From: Oscillospiraceae bacterium
Lineage (GTDB): Bacteria; Bacillota; Clostridia; Oscillospirales; Oscillospiraceae
DNA length: 64,000 nt
Assembly: GCA_017406005.1 (NCBI GenBank)
Contig: JAFQZI010000026.1
Coordinates: 1 to 64,000, forward strand
Reading direction: 5' to 3'
The translations under genes were made by a program, and so were the position numbers. Below the pieces are notes generated by a model. That model searched no databases. It was not told the origin of the DNA and saw nothing but the letters and a program-made list of their open reading frames with translations. Positions 1,267-10,459 of this stretch are shown in pieces. Every line of letters begins with the position of its first letter. The stretch's first letter is position 1.

Positions 1267-2418
1267 TCAACTGTCCAGCAGCTTGCTGTACAACTCATCG
1301 GTCTGCGCCGTAATATCCTGCCAGGTGTATTTGGATGAAACCACTTTTCGGGCTTCACTGCGATGAGCCTCTGCCTTTTCAGGATGATCGCACAGATCCT
1401 GCAGCGTTTCCCGCAGGATCTCCACGTCCCCACGGGGGAAAGTGAAGCCGCAGCCGTCCATTACATCCGCACATTCGCCGATATCGGAGGTCACGCAGCA
1501 GCATCCGTAATTCATAGCTTCCAGCAGAGTAAGGGGCATTCCCTCCAGATCGCTGGGCAGCACATACAGGTATGCGTTGCTGTATAATTCCTCCGCGACA
1601 AGTCCCTCCTGAAAACCGGTAAAAATGATAGAGGAGGAGTTCCCAGCCATAGCGTACAGCTGCCGCACATAATCATCCGTATCCGATGTGGCACCGACTA
1701 TCACCAGTTTTTTGTCCGTCCGGAGCATCTGATAAGCTTTGATAAGGTAATGAATTCCCTTCTCCGGTACCAGGCGGCCCAGAAACAGAATATATTCCCG
1801 GGAGACGAGACCAAACTGCTTAGTAATCTCACAGGCAGGCTTAATTTCAGCGGGGTCGATGCCATTGGGAATCAGCACTGTTTCCCGTCCATATTTCTCG
1901 CGAAAATAAGTACGGACGCCTTTACTCAGCACAATGATGCTGCTGGCATGACGGACAGCCGCTTTCTCGCCCTGCATGATGTACCAGGAAGCGAACTTTC
2001 CCCATTTTTGACGCATATGATCGAGCCCGTGAACTGTAACCACGACCTTTTTACCGAACAGCTTCGGCAGCCAGCAAAGGATGCATGGCCCTTCCGTATG
2101 GAAGTGTACCAGGTCAAAGCGGCTGAAAGAAGCCATCACTGTTGCAAAAACTGAAGAAGTCATAGCTGCCAGCCCACGGCGATCCACTGTCGGCGTCCAG
2201 ACTAAATGAACGCCCCGGTATTCCCGCATCAGCGACCCGTTTTTCCGGAGCTTTTTGAACTGCTTGTTCGTGCGGTTATAACAGGTCACATCATATCCGA
2301 TTCCGGCAAGATGCGGCGCAAGGTTGCTGACAACGACTTCCACCCCGCCATCTCTGGATGGGATAAATTTGTGCCCGATCATCGCAACCCGTTTTGATGC
2401 ATTCTGCACGTTTTTCAT
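1267..2418 (-). CDS. GT4 family glycosyltransferase
   Basis: This 383-aa protein has the GT-B double Rossmann layout. The N-terminal half contains a glycine-rich loop (SRDGGVEVVVSNLA) and a VHFHTEGP segment. The C-terminal half holds FLGRLVPEKG and the E-x7-E nucleotide-sugar motif in DLEGMPLTLLEAM. Such enzymes are retaining transferases acting on the lipid-linked repeat unit at the cytoplasmic membrane. No signal peptide or membrane segment is evident. The start ATG at 2418 follows AAAGGACGGA closely. It lies between a second GT4 gene and the flippase, so it probably adds one sugar to the exopolysaccharide unit. Donor and acceptor cannot be told from sequence. Confidence 0.9.
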   Translation of the reverse strand: MKNVQNASKRVAMIGHKFIPSRDGGVEVVVSNLAPHLAGIGYDVTCYNRTNKQFKKLRKNGSLMREYRGVHLVWTPTVDRRGLAAMTSSVFATVMASFSRFDLVHFHTEGPCILCWLPKLFGKKVVVTVHGLDHMRQKWGKFASWYIMQGEKAAVRHASSIIVLSKGVRTYFREKYGRETVLIPNGIDPAEIKPACEITKQFGLVSREYILFLGRLVPEKGIHYLIKAYQMLRTDKKLVIVGATSDTDDYVRQLYAMAGNSSSIIFTGFQEGLVAEELYSNAYLYVLPSDLEGMPLTLLEAMNYGCCCVTSDIGECADVMDGCGFTFPRGDVEILRETLQDLCDHPEKAEAHRSEARKVVSSKYTWQDITAQTDELYSKLLDS

Positions 2419-2491: not shown

Positions 2492-3604
2492 TTATGCGCG
2501 AGTTGCCATCTCCAGATAGATTTCCTGCAGCTTTCGCGCTTCCGCGTGAATGTCATATCCCGCCCGACGGACAATATCTATCCCATGATTCCGATCGGTT
2601 TCCGACTGCCATGCTGCCATAATCTCTCTTGCCCATTCCGCATCGTCTGCGCTGAGGGAAATCCTGCACGCTCCAGGAGAAAGCACGACCTCATCTGTTA
2701 CCCGGTCGGAAAAGAAGCATGGCAATCCGGCCGCCTGGGCCTCGATGCCAACAACGGGAAGCCCCTCAAACAGTGAAGGGAGCACAAAGCAGTCCATCGC
2801 CTGATACCATTCACTGACATCGGCCATCTGCCCCAGAAAGAGAACCTTATCCTGAATCCCCAAGGTACGGGCATTTTCTTTCACTGACTGTTCCAGCTCG
2901 CCTGTGCCGATCAGAGCGAGGCGAGCATCGGGAAGAACTTTTAGGATTTCCGTAAAAATATGCAGCAGGCGGCTGTGATTTTTTTGCACATTGAACCTGC
3001 CTACATGTCCGACCACAAAGCATTTTTCCAAACCATGGAGCTGTCTCAGGCGCTCACGGACTTCCTGCCGGAACGTAAATCTCGATATATCTATCGCATT
3101 GCGCAGGATGAAGCCGGATCCGTTCCACCGCTTTTTTCCGAAATAATAAATACCCGCGTCCCTGCCGCAGCTCCAGTAATCCGTTGCCGCACCGGGAAGA
3201 AGCTGCTTGCAGATCAACTTCAGCGGATACTTGTAGTCCCGGATAATCTGTGTGTTATGCGCATGTGCGATCCGAACCCGGAGCCCTGCATCTTTTGCAC
3301 TTTGAAGGGCATAATATCCCATGGCTTCGTTATGCGCATGAATGATCCCGATGTCGGGATTCCGGTGCAGCAGATCCGCCACATATCGCTTGTATCGGGG
3401 AAAATCCAACGGGTTAAGGCCTGGGCTGACGAAAACCCGTCCTCCCATGCTGCGAATCTCCTCGTCATATTCCCCCGGCATCGCTTTGTTGGCAAGGAAG
3501 TCAAATTGAATCTGACTCCGGTCAATCTCCCGGTAATAGTTCATCAGCATGGTTTCGATTCCCGCACGCGCCATATTGCTGACGGAATGCAGCACACGAA
3601 GCAT
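2492..3604 (-). CDS. GT4 glycosyltransferase, EpsF-like
   Basis: This 370-aa GT-B enzyme begins MLRVLHSVSNMARAGIETML, the start typical of the EpsF/YveN branch of exopolysaccharide glycosyltransferases. It carries IIHAHNEAMGYYAL and RVRIAHAHNTQ in the acceptor half, then VGRFNVQKNH and the E-x7-E motif in SLFEGLPVVGIEAQ in the donor half. It is cytoplasmic and probably works next to the membrane on an undecaprenyl-linked substrate. It is the sixth gene of the operon read from the metallophosphoesterase end. Assignment to EpsF rather than another GT4 subgroup rests on the N-terminus and remains tentative. Confidence 0.88.
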   Translation of the reverse strand: MLRVLHSVSNMARAGIETMLMNYYREIDRSQIQFDFLANKAMPGEYDEEIRSMGGRVFVSPGLNPLDFPRYKRYVADLLHRNPDIGIIHAHNEAMGYYALQSAKDAGLRVRIAHAHNTQIIRDYKYPLKLICKQLLPGAATDYWSCGRDAGIYYFGKKRWNGSGFILRNAIDISRFTFRQEVRERLRQLHGLEKCFVVGHVGRFNVQKNHSRLLHIFTEILKVLPDARLALIGTGELEQSVKENARTLGIQDKVLFLGQMADVSEWYQAMDCFVLPSLFEGLPVVGIEAQAAGLPCFFSDRVTDEVVLSPGACRISLSADDAEWAREIMAAWQSETDRNHGIDIVRRAGYDIHAEARKLQEIYLEMATRA

Positions 3605-3685: not shown

Positions 3686-4870
3686 TTACTTTCCGGAGTC
3701 CATTCGGCAAAGGATCTGATAAGTCCGCTCGCAATTCAGCTCATCCCGAACCGAGTAAAAATCATCAAGACGGTCTCGGTATTCCTTTTGAATCCGGAAA
3801 TCATTCCCAACGCATTCATAAACGGCGTTCATCAGTTCCTCCTCCGTTTTAACGACGGGGCCGAAGCCGTGCTTCTCGTAGGAGAAGTAACCTTCCTGAT
3901 AATGGTATTTCCGGAACTCCTCCATATCGAACTGGTAATAGATCACCGGCTTTTCCAAATAACCGATATCGAAAAACACACTGGAATAATCCGTGATCAG
4001 CAGGTTGCAGCGCATCAGCAGCGTCTGAACGTCGTACTCCTTCCAGCTCGCCAAAACGACCCTCTCTGAAGGAGACTTGAATTTGTCCAGTTCCTTCTGG
4101 AGCTCGATATGGGGATAGAAAAACAGCCTGAGATCATGTTCCTCGAGGAGCTTCAGCAGGCGGGGATTCTCCAGCATGGACTGAAACTGCCGGTAAAAAG
4201 CCGTTTCATAGAACCGTTCTCCCTGCGGATATTTCCAACCGCGCCAGGTCGGCATTACAAGGATTTCATTGGAAGGGTTATTTTCCCGGATGAGATTGTC
4301 AAAGCGGCACAGCCCCGTATACTGAATAATCCCTTCCGGAAAACCGAATTCCGAGACAAGGTAATCATATTCCAACTTCCCGCCGCTGGCAAAGAAATCA
4401 ACCTTCATGCTGGGATAGCTCATCCATTTCATGTCGTTCAGGATGATCCCATGCTGCAGAAAAATCTGCTTTCCTTGCGGATGAATCCCGATCTGACGAA
4501 GATGATAATAGGCCATCAGATCGGGGGCGGCAGGCTGCACATGGGTGCCGATCAGCAGGTCGGCAGCCATGTACATCAGATAATGCCGAAGCGATCTCCA
4601 CGCAACGGTCTCACCAAGCTGCGTGACCTTGCAATAGTCCGGACTGGCCTTGTCAATTACATAGCATGCGTTGATCTGCGGCTGTCGTTCCCGTAAGTAA
4701 CGGAAAAACCAGTAGGCGTTATCCCTCGCATCGAACCCGCGCTCCATCACCAGCCATAGGTGACGGTAGGCCTTGTTCGTTTTTCTCAGCACCGCGGCAA
4801 CGGGCCACAGCATAATAAGAAGAAACACATTTTTGAGATAAACCGGCAATCGCTTCAGTTTATTCCGCAT
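3686..4870 (-). CDS. CDP-glycerol glycerophosphotransferase family protein
   Basis: A 394-aa protein of the TagB/TagF-type family. Supporting motifs are FLQHGIILNDMKW, a central VMPTWRGWK segment, FYPHIELQKEL and LLITDYSSVFFDIGYLEKP, which match the GT-B core of glycerophosphotransferases. The family transfers glycerol phosphate (or a related polyol phosphate) from CDP-alcohols to a growing polymer at the inner membrane face. A near-N-terminal hydrophobic stretch (residues about 12-28) may anchor it. The chosen ATG at 4870 has GGAGG about 10 nt upstream, inside the end of the polymerase gene; a TTG at 4894 is less likely. It overlaps the upstream gene by 11 nt, implying coupled translation. 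The polysaccharide may therefore be phosphoglycerol-decorated. Confidence 0.85.
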   Translation of the reverse strand: MRNKLKRLPVYLKNVFLLIMLWPVAAVLRKTNKAYRHLWLVMERGFDARDNAYWFFRYLRERQPQINACYVIDKASPDYCKVTQLGETVAWRSLRHYLMYMAADLLIGTHVQPAAPDLMAYYHLRQIGIHPQGKQIFLQHGIILNDMKWMSYPSMKVDFFASGGKLEYDYLVSEFGFPEGIIQYTGLCRFDNLIRENNPSNEILVMPTWRGWKYPQGERFYETAFYRQFQSMLENPRLLKLLEEHDLRLFFYPHIELQKELDKFKSPSERVVLASWKEYDVQTLLMRCNLLITDYSSVFFDIGYLEKPVIYYQFDMEEFRKYHYQEGYFSYEKHGFGPVVKTEEELMNAVYECVGNDFRIQKEYRDRLDDFYSVRDELNCERTYQILCRMDSGK

Positions 4871-6239
4871 TTCCGACTTTTCCTCCCATTTCAATAAGCC
4901 AGATCTCGTCGGCTGATTCTTTCGGGGTCGGCGCTTTCCACTGCTTTGGATTCCCGGTTTTACTGATCCGGTAACTGTAGCTCATCGGAATCAGTCTCAG
5001 ACCGATGCAGCTCCAGAAATAGAACGCAGTGTTGTCGGTCAGATATGTCACTGTCATGTAGGCCAGAATAGCCATATACAACATGCCTGTTTCCGTGTCA
5101 TACCGCATCATCCAGTAAGCAGGATAGAGGATATAATTGATGCCTGCCCACAGGGTGAATCCCACTGCACCCAGTTCAATGAAGATCTTTAAAAAATCAT
5201 TGTGCAGCGGGTATGCGCGGTTGATGAGGCCTTCCTTATACCATGTGTTCACCAAGTCGGTGACACCTTCAAAGCCCAGCCCTTTCCAGAAAGGGGAAAG
5301 CGTATAGTATTTATTAGGCAGACTCCACAGCACGTCGCGGCCCATCATGTCGATCCCGAGTGACTCCAGAAATGCGACCAGAATGCCGGATCGTGTCAGA
5401 TAAAGATATAGATAGGAAAACAGGAACAAACCGATTCCTGTCGCCAGAATAAGCTTTCCCGGTTTTCTGGTCATACGGAGCAATTTTATATATACACACA
5501 CGAGAAGAACTGCCGGCAGAGTGCTGCGCTTCAGCCCCACCAGCATGAAAAAGAGGGAGAGGATCACGCCCCAGCGGCGCAGTCTCTTTTCCGATGTCGT
5601 GGTTTTCGGCGCGAACATCAAATAGTAGATACAGAATTGCCCGAACAGAAAGGTAATGTCGTGGATTTCCAATGCGCGCACAAACCCTTCTGCCTCTCCG
5701 AAGGTGACGATGCAGGTCACGACGGAGGAAACGCTCGCGGCGAACCCGTACTTCGGCATTTCCAGCAGCATAATGGCAGTGTTTGTGGCACACATGCTGA
5801 AAAATAGATAATTGATCGCTCTGTCTTCAAGCAGATAGCACATGAAGACGGCATAAATGATGGTGATTGTTTGAAAAAGTATCTTCTGCCCTGCTCTGCC
5901 GATGGATGCCGCTTTAGAGAAATCCGTGATCCATATGTACATGCTGACCAGAGAATAGACGGCTATCAGAACCAATAAAATTGGGAAATATCCCATCGCC
6001 TTTTTCAGGTTTACGAAATCAGCGGCTACAAGAAAATTCAGAAAAGCACAGACAATTGTGCCGAGCGCGATTGCCTTAGGCAGCGCCCCGAACGCATCAT
6101 TAAGAACCTTCCAATCTCCAAGCCCGGCGAGAACTGTGCATGTTACAGCAAGAAATACAATAAATACCGGACATTCTTTCCTCGATCTTTGCAGCCTTTC
6201 GCCGTTTGTACCGTTCTGCAGAAGTTTATTATTTGTCAC
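4860..6239 (-). CDS. O-antigen ligase/Wzy-type polysaccharide polymerase
   Basis: A 459-aa polytopic membrane protein with roughly 10-12 hydrophobic segments. A long loop around residues 290-350 contains GRDVLWSLPNKYY, GLGFEGVTDL and PLHNDFLKIFIELGAVGF; the H-N-D-F-L-K pattern is typical of the Wzy_C/O-antigen ligase family. Expected role is outer-face polymerisation of lipid-linked repeat units. I chose the GTG at 6239 because GGAG stands 8 nt upstream and it overlaps the stop of the Wzz-GGDEF gene by 11 nt. The open frame extends upstream to 6413, but that part lies inside the previous gene and has no sensible start. It also overlaps the next gene. Confidence 0.85.
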   Translation of the reverse strand: MTNNKLLQNGTNGERLQRSRKECPVFIVFLAVTCTVLAGLGDWKVLNDAFGALPKAIALGTIVCAFLNFLVAADFVNLKKAMGYFPILLVLIAVYSLVSMYIWITDFSKAASIGRAGQKILFQTITIIYAVFMCYLLEDRAINYLFFSMCATNTAIMLLEMPKYGFAASVSSVVTCIVTFGEAEGFVRALEIHDITFLFGQFCIYYLMFAPKTTTSEKRLRRWGVILSLFFMLVGLKRSTLPAVLLVCVYIKLLRMTRKPGKLILATGIGLFLFSYLYLYLTRSGILVAFLESLGIDMMGRDVLWSLPNKYYTLSPFWKGLGFEGVTDLVNTWYKEGLINRAYPLHNDFLKIFIELGAVGFTLWAGINYILYPAYWMMRYDTETGMLYMAILAYMTVTYLTDNTAFYFWSCIGLRLIPMSYSYRISKTGNPKQWKAPTPKESADEIWLIEMGGKVGNAE

Positions 6240-8127
6240 TATCTTTCTCCGTGATCTTTGCCTCTGCACAATCCTGACCATCCTCCGTTCCATTCTCCCC
6301 GGAGATGTACCCTGATACAGAGGATGTCTGCCCTGAATGCAATCTTTGCATGGCAAGCCGAAGCAGATCTCTGATCTCAAAGACATTGTCTGAACTTGAA
6401 ACAGCTTTGCCACAGGTATAGAGAATCTTGTGTTCCGGATTCAACTTGTTGTATTTATCAACCTGACGTCCGATTGCTTCCAGAATCACATCCAGTTTTT
6501 CGGACGAGCAATCCGCGAAGAAGGCGAAGAAAACGCCACTGCCGTTATATCCCACAAATCCGTACAAGTCGCCGAAGCTCTTCAGTATCATGGCAAAATC
6601 CTTCAGTACTTCATCGCCGACTGTGCGCCCATATTCACTTGACAGGCTGGTCAGAGAATCCATCTTTATTGCCATACAGGAGAAATCCTCGTCAAGAAGC
6701 CTGCTCGACCATTCGCCGATATACGCATCGCATCTGGCTCGGTTCGGGAGCTGAACCGTTTTATCCACATATCTGAAATAGTCAACAAAGTCGAGCGCTC
6801 TCCCCAGCAATACGGCACCGACACCTCCCACCAGCGCAAACAAAACAATTGCAATTGCAACGTACAACTTGATGTTCACAGCCGGCTGAACATTGATGCT
6901 GCTGATCATCGTCAGATAATTCGCGCTCAGATAACGATTCAGTTCATGCCCCGTGTTTTCCACATACTGATAGTATTCATTCACCAGACTTACACAGTGA
7001 TCCAGTTTTTCACGAATCTCTTCGGGGCTGAATGTTTCCTGCCCCTCTGCGCGTTGGGCAGTCTCAAATACGGAGAGCAGATATTCCTTGTGCTCTTTCT
7101 CGATTGTTTTTTGACGGATATCGATGTTCAGATTCACGCTTTCCTGAATAAGCTCGTCATACGTTGTTTCTTTATTGGTATGTTCGTGATCGTCCTCCAC
7201 ATTCTTCAGAATATATTCCGTACCGTTGTTCCAGTTGTAGGAGATGTGGTAATGGTAATCCATCATTTCCTTGTTGCGTTTAATAAAATTATCAATCAGC
7301 TTTTTCAGGGAATCAGCACGTTCCTGCCGGTTTTCGATATACAGCTGCATATCCTCGCAGTCTTTTGTCAACCGGCTCATCAGCAAATCTATATCGTTTG
7401 TTTCAGCATCGGTCAAAATCGCAGCGTACAGACTTGGAATCTCATACTCATATAAATGGTTGTAGATACGATACAAATCATCGTATGTATATCCTGTTTC
7501 CACCGATCGGAAATTTGGGTGGGAGGCCCTTTTGTCCAACAAATAATCCAGAATCTTCGAAACGGAATCATCCAGCACCTGTGCACTTTCTATATAGTCA
7601 TAATTCCCCTCAGCAAGCACGGAAGCGCCGTTATTCTGCAGCTGTTCCTCCACATATTTTTCAGCATAGAATTCGTAGTAGTTTTTGATGATTGCATCCA
7701 GCACGTTCCAGGCGTAATCCTCACCGGTATCGTTGTCACCGATGTAATATACCCGGTATGTATCCGTTACATAGGAGGGATCCTCGCCCATTTCCAGCAA
7801 CGCTTCATTCAGCTTCTGCTGTGCCTCCGGAATTACTTCTTCAACATAGCAATTTGAGCGGATCGAATCGATATTGGAATGATATCCCAGGTCCGTCAGG
7901 GCAGCGTCAATTACAGTCGAAGAATAAATTTCGTCAACGTTCAAAGGACTCCCGTCCGGTGTATAGCCCTCTTTGGCCCCATCGTTGGTATATTGAATGA
8001 CAGTTGAAGCAACGTAGTGCTGCTGAGATTTCCCGTAGAAATAAATCGTCAGAGAACCGATGACGGACAGAAGAAAGATCAGCAAACTAAATTGTTTCAG
8101 ATATCGCAGAATACTGAATTTTCTCAT
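6229..8127 (-). CDS. Wzz-like polysaccharide co-polymerase fused to a degenerate GGDEF domain
   Basis: This 632-aa protein has a membrane helix at about residues 13-33, a large extracytoplasmic region rich in acidic and coiled-coil-like sequence, a second helix at about 418-440, and a cytoplasmic tail. That is the two-helix Wzz/PCP plan. The tail (about 450-590) reads as a GGDEF fold: VDKTVQLPNRARCDAYI, then YGRTVGDEVLKDFA, then the signature position around residues 526-533, which is G-Y-N-G-S-G-V-F instead of R-Y-G-G-D-E-F. The upstream inhibitory RxxD site is also absent. The domain is therefore probably not a cyclase; it may bind a nucleotide or act structurally. Its ATG overlaps the previous gene by 4 nt. 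Confidence 0.8.
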   Translation of the reverse strand: MRKFSILRYLKQFSLLIFLLSVIGSLTIYFYGKSQQHYVASTVIQYTNDGAKEGYTPDGSPLNVDEIYSSTVIDAALTDLGYHSNIDSIRSNCYVEEVIPEAQQKLNEALLEMGEDPSYVTDTYRVYYIGDNDTGEDYAWNVLDAIIKNYYEFYAEKYVEEQLQNNGASVLAEGNYDYIESAQVLDDSVSKILDYLLDKRASHPNFRSVETGYTYDDLYRIYNHLYEYEIPSLYAAILTDAETNDIDLLMSRLTKDCEDMQLYIENRQERADSLKKLIDNFIKRNKEMMDYHYHISYNWNNGTEYILKNVEDDHEHTNKETTYDELIQESVNLNIDIRQKTIEKEHKEYLLSVFETAQRAEGQETFSPEEIREKLDHCVSLVNEYYQYVENTGHELNRYLSANYLTMISSINVQPAVNIKLYVAIAIVLFALVGGVGAVLLGRALDFVDYFRYVDKTVQLPNRARCDAYIGEWSSRLLDEDFSCMAIKMDSLTSLSSEYGRTVGDEVLKDFAMILKSFGDLYGFVGYNGSGVFFAFFADCSSEKLDVILEAIGRQVDKYNKLNPEHKILYTCGKAVSSSDNVFEIRDLLRLAMQRLHSGQTSSVSGYISGENGTEDGQDCAEAKITEKDSDK

Positions 8128-9470
8128 ACTTCTTTCTCCTTATCTGAACGAAACTTACGCAGGAAAACGTAGGTGAATACTGAGAAAAGAATCAGAGCGG
8201 CGCAAAGGAGCGAAGGAATAAGACCGATTTGATCCGCAAAATTCACATCGTCGTCGCTGAAACCGATATAGTTGCGGGCTTTCGTACTTGTATACGCGCT
8301 GTCCACCGCGTGGATATCCGAGGCGAGCTTTTCCAGCGACACCTCCGTTTCACGGATCATGAGATCAGCTTTTTCCGTGTTCATCTCATCGGACTCGTTT
8401 GACTCCAGCTTTTCCGCCAGATAGGTGTTATAGTTAATCTGCTCCATTCGCTCCACTGCCCCCAAAAGCTGTTCGTCAGCGTGAATGGCCATGTTGTCCA
8501 TCCCGGTTTTAGTTCTGGACATATAATAATTCATTGTCTGATCCTGCGTAGGAATCATGACGGCAGCGCTCATAGCTGCGTCGTACATCTGTATTCCCTT
8601 ATTGTCTTCGTCATATGCAGCCATCATTTTGTTATGCGCCAGGCTATCCATGCGTATTTTGTAATTCAGCATGCTGTCCAGGCCTGCCCTGTCGTTTGCA
8701 ATGCCGTTCTCAATTATATAGGAACGCAGTTTGGCAAGGTCATAGTCATAAATGTTTTTCGCCCGTTGTTCCAGAGCAGAGAAAGTGATCCCGGTATCCG
8801 GATCCTGATAGTTCTTACTTTCCCGCCTGCGAAGATGCACAAAATTATCCAGCTGGCTGCATTTCAGTTCCAGGAGGTCAACCGCCATCAGATACTCATC
8901 ATTGAATTTCAGATCATTGACATCAAAAGACAGGATGGAGTGGTTGAAGCCATAGTGTTCTACGAAGTACTCGCGATATGCCTTGCAGAGGAGTGAAAGC
9001 ATACCTTCTGCAGTCCTTCCGTCAATTACACCGTCGTTTGTAAATCTGACAATATATGAGGTGCTGATATAATTCACATTTCCGCTGATGTTTTTGTCAT
9101 GCGTTGGCTGTACGCTGATGCATTCGCTCAGTTCATCCGGGGTTATCTTTCCTTCCAGACCGGCGTAATCTATCAACCGCTCCATAACCTCCGCACTTTG
9201 GATCTCAAAAATATTGAACCGCGTCCGGTTGGGCGTTAAGCCTTTGGAAGCCTCCTCATAATCCAACGACAGAATTGTGCTGGCTGTGTGAAGGTTCCTG
9301 ATATAGTGAAAGCCGCATAAGACCAGGGAAATAATCAGGAAGGAAACGAGAACAAAGGATCTCCGCTTCCAAAACGCCTCAAAAGTATTTTGCAGGCTGC
9401 TCCACCCTTTGCCCGGAATACCGAATGATTCCATGTCCTTGGCTATTTTCAAGCTGTTTTTCTCTTTCAT
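8124..9470 (-). CDS. Wzz-like polysaccharide chain-length/co-polymerase protein
   Basis: A 448-aa protein with a cytoplasmic basic N-terminus, a membrane helix at about residues 39-58 (FVLVSFLIISLVLCGFHYI), a long extracytoplasmic region, and a second helix at about 417-438 followed by a short basic tail. This is the Wzz/PCP topology, and the post-helix segment TILSLDYEEASKGLTPNRTR parallels the equivalent stretch of its downstream partner. The start was set at ATG 9470, which follows a purine-rich GGAAGGAG region; the frame remains open to a TTG at 9575 that lacks a good site. It overlaps the Wzz-GGDEF gene by 4 nt, suggesting the two are made together and may form one assembly. Confidence 0.75.
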   Translation of the reverse strand: MKEKNSLKIAKDMESFGIPGKGWSSLQNTFEAFWKRRSFVLVSFLIISLVLCGFHYIRNLHTASTILSLDYEEASKGLTPNRTRFNIFEIQSAEVMERLIDYAGLEGKITPDELSECISVQPTHDKNISGNVNYISTSYIVRFTNDGVIDGRTAEGMLSLLCKAYREYFVEHYGFNHSILSFDVNDLKFNDEYLMAVDLLELKCSQLDNFVHLRRRESKNYQDPDTGITFSALEQRAKNIYDYDLAKLRSYIIENGIANDRAGLDSMLNYKIRMDSLAHNKMMAAYDEDNKGIQMYDAAMSAAVMIPTQDQTMNYYMSRTKTGMDNMAIHADEQLLGAVERMEQINYNTYLAEKLESNESDEMNTEKADLMIRETEVSLEKLASDIHAVDSAYTSTKARNYIGFSDDDVNFADQIGLIPSLLCAALILFSVFTYVFLRKFRSDKEKEV

Positions 9471-9571
9471 TGCCTTTCTTCTCCTTCCTGCCTCTAAGGC
9501 CGCCTCCTGGCTGGCAGCATATCTTCCATCCCCGACAATCTTTCCACGTAGCGGTCGTGCCCTGGAACCGC

Positions 9572-10459
9572 TCAATACCGGTTGATATCGATCACAACCA
9601 GTTCAGGAGTGTTGTTGATCCGCGGCGGAAAGGGCTTTGAGTCACCGAGCCCCGCACTGATGATCAGGGTTTGTTGATTGTCCAGAATGTATTTTCCCGC
9701 GGTGAATTTTGGGAAAAAGCCTTCTTCATCCGAAAATAATCCACCAAAGAAAGGAAAATTCACGATTCCACCGTGCACATGTCCCGCAATTCCCAGATCA
9801 AAACCATATCCGGACAGCTGCGAGTCGAAGAGGATCGGAATATGGGCCATAAGTATGCTGTAAGCGGAAGGATCGATGTCAGCTTTATCCATGAATTCCC
9901 GCCCGCCGTATTCTTCAAATCCATAAGCTGTGCCTTCCACACCGATCAGTTGAATGGTATCCTTACCGATCCGGATCTTTTTAAGAGAATTGCGCAGCAG
10001 CTTCAGCCCGGCGTTTTCGAACTTTTCAGGTAAATCCTTGTCGTTTCCATAATAGATGCGTTCGCTCTCGTGGTTACCCAGGACTCCGTAACAAGGCGCG
10101 ATCTCGGTTAATGCTGAAACAAGATTCAGCATGGGCTGGTAGTCGTCCTCTTCCCGGATAACCATGTCACCGGGGAAAAGGATGAGATCGGGCTTTAAGG
10201 CGCGAAGATCGGAAATCAGCACTTCATTGTTTTCTCCATATTCCCGGTCGTGAATATCGGCGATGACCGCGATCCGGATATTATCGCTGACTTTTTTTGA
10301 AGTTTCCTGATAGAAACTTATTATATAGTGTGTTTTTGTATACAGGCTATAATAGTAAACAGCTATGCCGATGATAAGCGCCAAAATGAGCAAAACAGCC
10401 AAAATGCGAAGCAGTGCTCTTAGAAAACCATGTTTTTTCTTTGCTGTCTCTTTTTTCAT
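9572..10459 (-). CDS. Membrane-anchored calcineurin-like metallophosphoesterase
   Basis: A 295-aa protein with an N-terminal helix (about residues 11-33) and then the metallophosphoesterase motifs in order: D-x-H in VIADIHDREYG, GD in ILFPGDMV, GNHES, a histidine in LMAHIPILFD, and GHVHGG. These are the dinuclear-metal ligands of the YkuE-like family. The catalytic part should face outward, judging from the basic N-terminus and single anchor, but that is inference. It is the first gene after the promoter at 10661-10689 and heads the polysaccharide operon, so it may trim a phosphodiester of the polymer or of a lipid-linked intermediate. The Shine-Dalgarno match is weak (GGGAG about 12 nt upstream). 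Confidence 0.85.
   Translation of the reverse strand: MKKETAKKKHGFLRALLRILAVLLILALIIGIAVYYYSLYTKTHYIISFYQETSKKVSDNIRIAVIADIHDREYGENNEVLISDLRALKPDLILFPGDMVIREEDDYQPMLNLVSALTEIAPCYGVLGNHESERIYYGNDKDLPEKFENAGLKLLRNSLKKIRIGKDTIQLIGVEGTAYGFEEYGGREFMDKADIDPSAYSILMAHIPILFDSQLSGYGFDLGIAGHVHGGIVNFPFFGGLFSDEEGFFPKFTAGKYILDNQQTLIISAGLGDSKPFPPRINNTPELVVIDINRY

Follow-up and report, generated by a model that had tools for sequence, protein, structure and literature searches.

How is chain length controlled in Clostridia whose polysaccharide locus has no bacterial tyrosine kinase (BY-kinase)? The question is raised by a locus of a gut bacterium of the Oscillospiraceae (GCA_017406005.1, contig JAFQZI010000026.1), located in the stretch of 64,000 nucleotides analysed here, the window. 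It is accompanied by a second one: the routes by which c-di-GMP reaches Wzy-dependent machines beyond transcription are, in our judgement, poorly known. All genes of the locus are on the minus strand. The contig begins at window base 1, so that the end of the operon is out of view.

9572..10459, minus strand: metallophosphoesterase (PF00149) with a hydrophobic stretch at the N-terminus
8124..9575, minus strand: A, a paralogue of B, co-polymerase-like, without the tail domain
8136..8141, minus strand: ribosome-binding site of B, AAGGAG, within the 3' end of A
6229..8127, minus strand: B, co-polymerase-like protein with a cytoplasmic degenerate GGDEF tail, 632 amino acids
8029..8100, minus strand: first transmembrane segment of B, about residues 10-33 (hydropathy)
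6883..8028, minus strand: large loop of B, about residues 34-415, taken as extracytoplasmic (hydropathy and homology to A)
6790..6882, minus strand: second transmembrane segment of B, about residues 416-446 (hydropathy)
6337..6771, minus strand: degenerate GGDEF domain of B, residues 453-597 (PF00990)
6529..6543, minus strand: signature position of B, GSGVF, residues 529-533, replacing GG[DE]EF, with the invariant N528 just before
4860..6413, minus strand: Wzy / O-antigen ligase-like polymerase (PF04932), conserved next to B; the listed open reading frame overlaps B
3686..4894, minus strand: CDP-glycerol glycerophosphotransferase-like protein (PF04464)
2492..3604, minus strand: glycosyltransferase (PF13692, PF00534)
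1267..2418, minus strand: glycosyltransferase (PF00534, PF13439)

The frame of B is intact: it has no internal stop and starts with an ATG, which the AAGGAG precedes by 8 nt. Together with 25 relatives from named genomes (64-82% identity), this ruled out a pseudogene or a sequencing artefact. A and B overlap by 4 bases at the start of B; the true start of A is likely the ATG at 9470. The Wzy-like reading frame reached 29.0 bits against PF04932, under the cut-off of 31.7, and its listed start is probably too far upstream. Each of the 33 wider tail-bearing B loci that were inspected has a homolog of the metallophosphoesterase.

Hydropathy placed two transmembrane segments in B (centres near residues 14-24 and 420-439), flanking a loop of about 380 residues. 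Both termini would lie in the cytoplasm, an orientation that we infer. A Pfam scan of B itself (E up to 1) gave no direct match to the Wzz family (PF02706). The profiles of A and B likewise gave no direct HMMER match to Wzz loci, and profile-profile comparison was needed. With 27 of the 28 Wzz loci, hhalign probabilities were 95.4 for A-short, 91.8 for A-long (kinase-fused), 90.6 for B-long and only 41.1 for B-short. Reversed controls stayed at or below 2.3; the two-helix sensor controls were single sequences and are weaker controls than reversed profiles. The chassis of B is homologous to A over 364 columns (probability 99.6), and two of nine tailless relatives scanned, L120 and L133, exceeded the PF02706 cut-off. 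The A profile had no match among solved structures. B adjoins polymerase and glycosyltransferase genes, as in loci of Wzz-type co-polymerases. The original prediction had named B a Wzz-type co-polymerase; this identity is supported as a distant relationship, and the label is based on the profile-profile comparison and on the PF02706 matches among tailless relatives.

The tail was predicted to have the GGDEF layout, and at the level of sequence it does. PF00990 matched residues 453-597 with E=5e-12 and 46.3 bits, well above the cut-off of 23.8 (49 bits in the genome search). The profile of the family tails matched ordinary GGDEF domains over 152 columns with a probability of 99.8, compared with 0.4 for the reversed control. 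The tail of L013 is just under the Pfam cut-off, with 23.2 versus 23.8 bits. The letters of the signature are destroyed, as claimed, but the register given for them, N-G-S-G-V, starts one residue early. A phmmer alignment to PDB 6eib, the family alignment and a column tally all assigned the GGDEF letters to G529-S530-G531-V532-F533. The RxxD inhibitory site is missing, in agreement with the prediction: the I-site positions (-9, -6) are D and G in the window's B, and no RxxD was present within the 14 residues preceding the loop in any of 50 family tails (49 distinct; L008 and L044 have identical tails). The catalytic glutamate is lost in 50/50 tails. The first metal-binding aspartate is kept in 13/50 and is a lysine in the window. 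This rules out an active diguanylate cyclase.

Remains of the substrate pocket may bind GTP or another guanine nucleotide instead of c-di-GMP, and the tail would then inform the co-polymerase of an energy or stringent state. Degenerate GGDEF domains that bind GTP do exist, Caulobacter PdeA being an example. The position equivalent to PleD D344, a guanine contact, is kept in 48/50 tails, in a family without an I-site. The guanine-contacting N335 position is kept in 21/50 and replaced by S, T or Q in 29/50, including the window; the K332 position is kept in 3, and the catalytic glutamate is gone throughout. Guanine nucleotide sensing also leaves the relatives with an EAL tail (below) unexplained and appears unlikely.

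A dead domain may also survive from an old fusion as a relic that the structure tolerates and that no longer has a function. The loss of catalytic and inhibitory motifs and the occurrence of tailless relatives agree with a relic; the conservation of the tail does not. In eight pairs, dN/dS was 0.05-0.19 for the tail and 0.08-0.14 for the loop, with the tail above the loop in 5/8 pairs. N462, R463, D467, N528, R586 and L588 are invariant in 50/50 tails. N528 belongs to the replacement loop at the signature, which is conserved, and together with the low dN/dS this indicates that the tail is not decaying. By its substitution pattern, the tail of B is under purifying selection. Conservation across Clostridia, a check set beforehand, was thus borne out, and the selection data make a functionless relic very improbable.

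The chassis of B was present in 50 of 391 genomes of the class. It is joined to a dead GGDEF in 20 and to an EAL tail in 11, and no tail was seen in 19, counting L118 as tailless, whose sequence is cut by the contig end. The EAL tail was recognised by Pfam in 10/11; L126 was assigned by alignment. In that alignment, own_L047, one of two reference EALs, was ignored (wrong reading frame). E175, R179, N233, E265, D295, K316, E355 and Q372 are retained in 11/11 EAL tails. Catalytic residues are lost in 9/11, and a cysteine replaces E352 in 9/11; for numbering and residue roles we assume those of RocR. In 200 bootstrap trees, the 34 GGDEF-tailed rows grouped as a single clade every time (100%), and so did the 11 EAL-tailed rows. 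The tree comprised 15 of the 31 sequences of the first B alignment and class members; its long branches include that of L115 with the EAL clade. No tail loss occurred among the 34 sampled GGDEF-tailed rows, a further point against a relic. Since each tail type is one clade, two c-di-GMP-family domains share, as judged from sequence, one co-polymerase chassis. The predicted covalent link between a c-di-GMP-family module and a chain-length regulator finds its strongest evidence in the EAL-tailed relatives.

The genomes encode further parts of the c-di-GMP system. PF00990 matched twice or more in each of 38 further genomes whose B has a GGDEF tail, and one match per genome is expected to be B. 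The window's own genome has a GGDEF domain in which both RxxD and the GGDEF letters are present, and two EAL domains; it gave no match for PilZ. L140 and L152 contain the genome's other GGDEF/EAL proteins and are not B loci.

The neighbourhoods differ from those of ordinary Wzz systems in the kinase. A BY-kinase model, built from six sequences, found no match in 33 wider tail-bearing loci and in 25 named window-type loci, compared with 25/28 PF02706 Wzz loci as positive control. With the kinase neither fused nor adjacent, the tail-bearing proteins do not belong to the BY-kinase co-polymerases (PCP-2a/2b). TIGR01007 was over its cut-off in 11 of 20 genomes; because BY-kinases thus occur elsewhere in many such genomes, one could act from a distance. 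The Wzy model matched 22/23 GGDEF-tailed wider loci versus 0/10 EAL-tailed ones.

The tail could also be a ligand-free docking or dimerisation module, whose partner would be the polymerase machinery or a GGDEF/EAL enzyme made as a separate protein. Strong purifying selection on a domain with no recognisable ligand site is consistent with this, as is the frequent occurrence of GGDEF/EAL genes in the loci of the wider family. Such genes were near 14/27 wider tail-bearing loci versus 0/20 same-contig controls, which were chosen by hand and not randomly (Fisher p = 6e-5, a value that overstates independence because the loci are related). L134-L139 were left out of this count, as they were framed with knowledge of a nearby GGDEF (6/6 have one). 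Five of 19 tailless loci also had such a gene (Fisher p=0.13 versus tail-bearing), and the association is therefore not tail-specific. In the window's close clade, no other GGDEF/EAL gene was found in the window or in the 25 named loci (368 kb), which counts against docking, lowers the odds of the reading favoured below and of its broader version, and fits guanine nucleotide sensing. The eight of eight checked ligand-contacting residues conserved in all EAL tails also argue against pure docking, which has no need of them. Docking alone is doubtful.

The reading favoured here, to which we give about an even chance, is that a Wzy co-polymerase would receive its cytoplasmic input from an inactive domain of the c-di-GMP system, which would sense the state of this system in the role of the tyrosine kinase. 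Fold, gene order, conservation, tail swapping and the lack of a BY-kinase gene at the locus provide its support, as far as sequences can, and the GGDEF/EAL genes near many wider loci speak for it as well. Points against it are the missing RxxD, the lost catalytic, metal-binding and guanine-contacting residues, the lack of GGDEF/EAL neighbours near window-type loci, the low B-short probability, the EAL-tailed loci without a Wzy match and the pairs with a higher dN/dS in the tail than in the loop. A and B would form a two-protein polysaccharide co-polymerase with the neighbouring Wzy-type polymerase as partner. The dead GGDEF tail would be an allosteric input. To report on the c-di-GMP system, it might bind c-di-GMP itself, though outside the classical I-site, or it might associate with a GGDEF/EAL enzyme whose gene is in the same locus or elsewhere. 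The second transmembrane helix would relay the signal from the tail to the ring of the co-polymerase, and the tail would replace the BY-kinase of ordinary Wzz/Wzc systems. The ligand or partner, the conformational coupling, the ring of A and B and an effect on chain length or export are steps that we infer. Because distant relatives have another domain of the same signalling system in this place, surface-polysaccharide assembly may be under the direct influence of an internal messenger.

A broader version is more tentative: a group across the class Clostridia may control Wzy-dependent polysaccharide assembly through c-di-GMP-system receptors covalently attached to the co-polymerase, instead of through tyrosine-kinase phosphorylation. 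Such receptors would have been gained two or more times, once as a dead GGDEF and once as an EAL that is mostly dead, and the dead GGDEF would have a new binding mode around the YNGxxxF loop. Binding of c-di-GMP by the tail despite the missing I-site, if it occurs, would define a receptor class missed by present motif searches. The questions of chain-length control and of the route of c-di-GMP both converge on one purifiable domain of about 160 residues.

The consulted portions of the open-licence literature contained no description of a Wzz-GGDEF or Wzz-EAL fusion (including PMC8669469, PMC4125290, PMC7112168, PMC11340318, PMC4971617, PMC7112194, PMC4443731). A close comparison in these portions is with PelD and PssE, degenerate GGDEF c-di-GMP receptors in exopolysaccharide loci that bind via RxxD (PMC7112168, PMC4125290). 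The originally suggested likeness to PelD-type receptors stands for a dead GGDEF encoded in a polysaccharide locus, with Gram-positive examples included, but not for RxxD-based binding: the motif occurs in 0/50 B-family tails, which rules out membership among PelD/PssE-type I-site receptors. In the same portions, no fusion to a Wzz-type co-polymerase is described for PelD or PssE, and Pel is synthase-dependent.

With Wzz/Wzc/CapA proteins (PF02706), B shares two transmembrane segments with a large loop, the position beside polymerase and glycosyltransferase genes and a distant profile similarity. The B family differs by a cytoplasmic part of the GGDEF or EAL type and by a locus without a BY-kinase gene. 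GdpP/YybT and YdaK are, like B, membrane proteins of Firmicutes with an altered GGDEF signature, but their N-terminal parts and the replacement letters are different. LapD and FimX are dead GGDEF-EAL receptors. The B-type GGDEF or EAL occurs singly on a co-polymerase and not with HAMP or PAS; the EAL-tailed relatives resemble LapD and FimX in keeping the ligand residues and losing the catalytic ones.

The gene for B (window 6229-8127, minus strand) has an unbroken frame of 632 amino acids and shares four bases with the end of the upstream gene for A (window 8124-9575, minus strand), a tailless paralog. Hydropathy gives two hydrophobic segments in B, with centres near residues 14-24 and 420-439, separated by a loop of about 380 residues. 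The tail was located as follows:

Residues 453-597 of B: C-terminal domain, Pfam GGDEF (E=5.2e-12, 46.3 bits against a cut-off of 23.8)
Residues 529-533 of B: signature position, GSGVF in the alignment to GGDEF domains and the family

The profile of the 50-tail family matched five ordinary GGDEF domains with a probability of 99.8 over 152 columns, against 0.4 for the reversed tail profile as control. Together with the Pfam match, this confirms the GGDEF layout of the original prediction. The signature loss also stands, in a corrected register: GSGVF lies one residue after the position first given.

The residue tally covers 50 GGDEF tails, 49 of them distinct. The catalytic glutamate is present in none, and none has an RxxD within 14 residues upstream of the signature, as predicted for this inhibitory site. 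The first metal-binding aspartate is kept in 13 tails. N462, R463, D467, N528 and R586 (B numbering) occur in all 50, and D505, which we take to be D344 of PleD in numbering and role, in 48. The N335 position is occupied by serine (23), asparagine (21), threonine (5) or glutamine (1); the histidine of GGDEF domains is replaced by arginine in 47 tails. For eight pairs, not all independent and some with dS near or above 1, dN/dS was 0.05-0.19 in the tail and 0.08-0.14 in the loop, the tail being higher in five. Unlike the domain, the sequence from about residue 600 onward is poorly conserved. By invariant residues and dN/dS, the tail proved conserved among homologs. The dead GGDEF tail very probably has a job, since the catalytic letters are gone while its own invariant set is kept under purifying selection.

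An 880-residue B (L143:8678-11320, plus strand; also L085) has about 280 additional residues after the dead GGDEF domain, an extension with no Pfam match at 0.01. A genome of the same genus encodes a 232-residue protein (L015:1258-1956, plus strand) with a related GGDEF-like domain, the signature GGNKF and no long co-polymerase loop.

Protein A is paralogous to the loop of B, their profiles aligning over 364 columns with a probability of 99.6. Neither protein has a Wzz match in Pfam. When their profiles were compared with those of short and long Wzz proteins from the same taxonomic family, A gave probabilities of 95.4 and 91.8, respectively; B reached 90.6 with the long, kinase-fused proteins and just 41.1 with the short ones. 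Reversed-profile controls did not exceed 2.3; four two-helix sensors, compared as single sequences rather than profiles, did not exceed 3.2. Two of nine scanned tailless relatives of B exceed the cut-off of the Wzz family PF02706 (25.5 bits; L120 26.8, L133 26.0 bits). On these comparisons, B is taken to be a diverged polysaccharide co-polymerase.

For a model of six bacterial tyrosine kinases (BY-kinases; threshold >80 bits), 28 PF02706 loci, each spanning some 2-3 kb in genomes of the same taxonomic family, served as positive comparison, and 25 of them matched. The model matched none of the 25 window-type, 33 tail-bearing and 19 tailless loci and none of 20 controls. BY-kinases are encoded elsewhere in many genomes (TIGR01007 above cut-off in 11 of 20); in B's own genome, TIGR01007 did not exceed the cut-off.

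Full-length B matched 13 of 300 genomes of the taxonomic family, its own included: eight with the chassis, which is B without the tail (one truncated by a contig end), and five through the tail only. The chassis profile at 1e-6 matched 50 of 391 Clostridia genomes across 37 of 223 genera; at 1e-20, it matched 3 of 398 genomes of the phylum draw, one outside the class. By tail type, assigned from the best frame, the 50 comprise 20 with a dead GGDEF domain (own genome included), 11 with an EAL domain and 19 with no tail seen, L118 among the latter being truncated by a contig end. GGDEF and EAL models matched none of the 19.

L113, L115, L117, L119, L121-L127: EAL-tailed co-polymerases on the same chassis (n=11)

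Pfam confirms ten of these EAL tails (E 5e-31 or better); the eleventh, L126, was assigned by alignment. In what we take to be RocR numbering, E175, R179, N233, E265, D295, K316, E355 and Q372 are kept in all 11, and nine have C at E352 and R, K or Q at D296. The kept residues presumably contact c-di-GMP, and those lost in the nine are presumably catalytic. At D296, L115 carries N; in L113 every position checked is kept. The pattern is as expected of receptors that would bind without cleaving.

Each of the 11 EAL-tailed class members, and each of the 19 GGDEF-tailed ones besides the own genome, has an A-like gene immediately upstream; in the EAL clade this gene is closer to the B profile than to the A profile. 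All 200 bootstrap trees of the chassis (72 rows) unite the GGDEF-tailed members in a single clade, and likewise the EAL-tailed members, so these two domains of one signalling system would be acquisitions made at separate times on one chassis, or one displaced the other. Tailless members fall between and outside these clades in the quick tree, drawn in full; the chassis tree has long branches and some unsure joins, L115 included. Both tails point to the same kind of input.

In the own genome, PF00990 gave six matches (B among them, one below cut-off), and two EAL domains are present. One GGDEF domain, on contig 46, has RxxD and GGDEF letters. Given the intact signature and the EAL domains, it can probably make and degrade c-di-GMP. 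PilZ had no match in this assembly (92.9% complete, 6.6% contamination). PF00990 matched at least twice in each of the 38 further genomes searched that carry a GGDEF-tailed B. Contig 43 of the own genome encodes a protein (L140:8625-10847) whose EAL domain keeps all residues checked and which also has two GGDEF-family domains; the first GGDEF lacks the signature, and a pattern search gave no GGDEF-like letters.

GGDEF/EAL genes other than B were counted within about 20 kb (local models >40 bits). At least one was present in 14 of 27 symmetric tail-bearing loci, against 0 of 20 control stretches placed by us on the same contigs (Fisher 6e-5) and, among the tailless loci, where some of the stretches are shorter, 5 of 19 (Fisher 0.13); these values are rough because the loci are related. 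The five tailless loci all lie within the ten L189-L198, with none in L199-L207:

L192:18943-19899, minus strand, separate EAL/GGDEF gene
L194:15467-16966, minus strand, separate EAL/GGDEF gene
L195:11269-12591, minus strand, separate EAL/GGDEF gene
L197:10556-12055, minus strand, separate EAL/GGDEF gene
L198:15495-16034, minus strand, separate EAL/GGDEF gene

These nearby genes look like a possible trans-acting substitute for the tail. Pfam confirms GGDEF or EAL in ten tested neighbour proteins and two from tailless loci. Among GGDEF neighbours above 40 bits, at least one intact signature occurs in all nine tail-bearing loci listed, six of which were framed knowing of the neighbour; L134 has a second one without it. 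L134 also encodes an amino acid permease fused to an intact-signature GGDEF domain (5725-7998, minus strand), about 9 kb from its B gene. No other GGDEF/EAL gene is found in the window or the 25 named window-type loci (368 kb), so any such enzyme of the window's clade would work from elsewhere in the genome.

The order metallophosphoesterase, A, B, Wzy-like polymerase and glycerophosphotransferase-like gene occurs in 23 of the 25 relatives from named genomes; the other two (L027, L045) are at contig ends. Glycosyltransferase homologs come next in nearly all. L036 has its homolog upstream rather than after, L035, L037, L039 and L042 have space for one additional gene, and L022 has the A and Wzy genes each split over two frames. 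The next gene in L044 and L032 is flippase-like by appearance only (no Pfam match at 0.001 for the L044 protein), and L032 then has a family 2 glycosyltransferase. Among 33 wider tail-bearing loci (from L134-L168; 23 GGDEF-tailed, 10 EAL-tailed), the metallophosphoesterase model matches all (window copy at 9572-10459) and the Wzy model 22 of the GGDEF-tailed and none of the EAL-tailed. The CDP-glycerol glycerophosphotransferase-like gene (window 3686-4894) within a Wzy-type locus may indicate a glycerol-phosphate-bearing polymer.

With the domain, its conservation, tail swapping, locus content and the absence of a locus kinase established, the favoured reading is that the dead GGDEF domain would be the cytoplasmic input of the A-B co-polymerase. 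The tail would report the state of the c-di-GMP system through a ligand or a partner, and the signal, coupled via TM2, would alter the polymer. The ligand is the weak point of this mechanism: none of the known c-di-GMP sites remains in the tail. Sensing of GTP and docking of a GGDEF/EAL enzyme are therefore live alternatives to the favoured c-di-GMP input.

No description of a fusion between Wzz and a GGDEF or EAL domain turned up in the open-licence papers searched. The nearest functional models for the B tail are PelD and PssE, which bind c-di-GMP through RxxD (PMC7112168, PMC4125290). The B tail differs from both in this motif, and B is classed as a co-polymerase whose putative control domain, on the cytoplasmic side, is of a new type.
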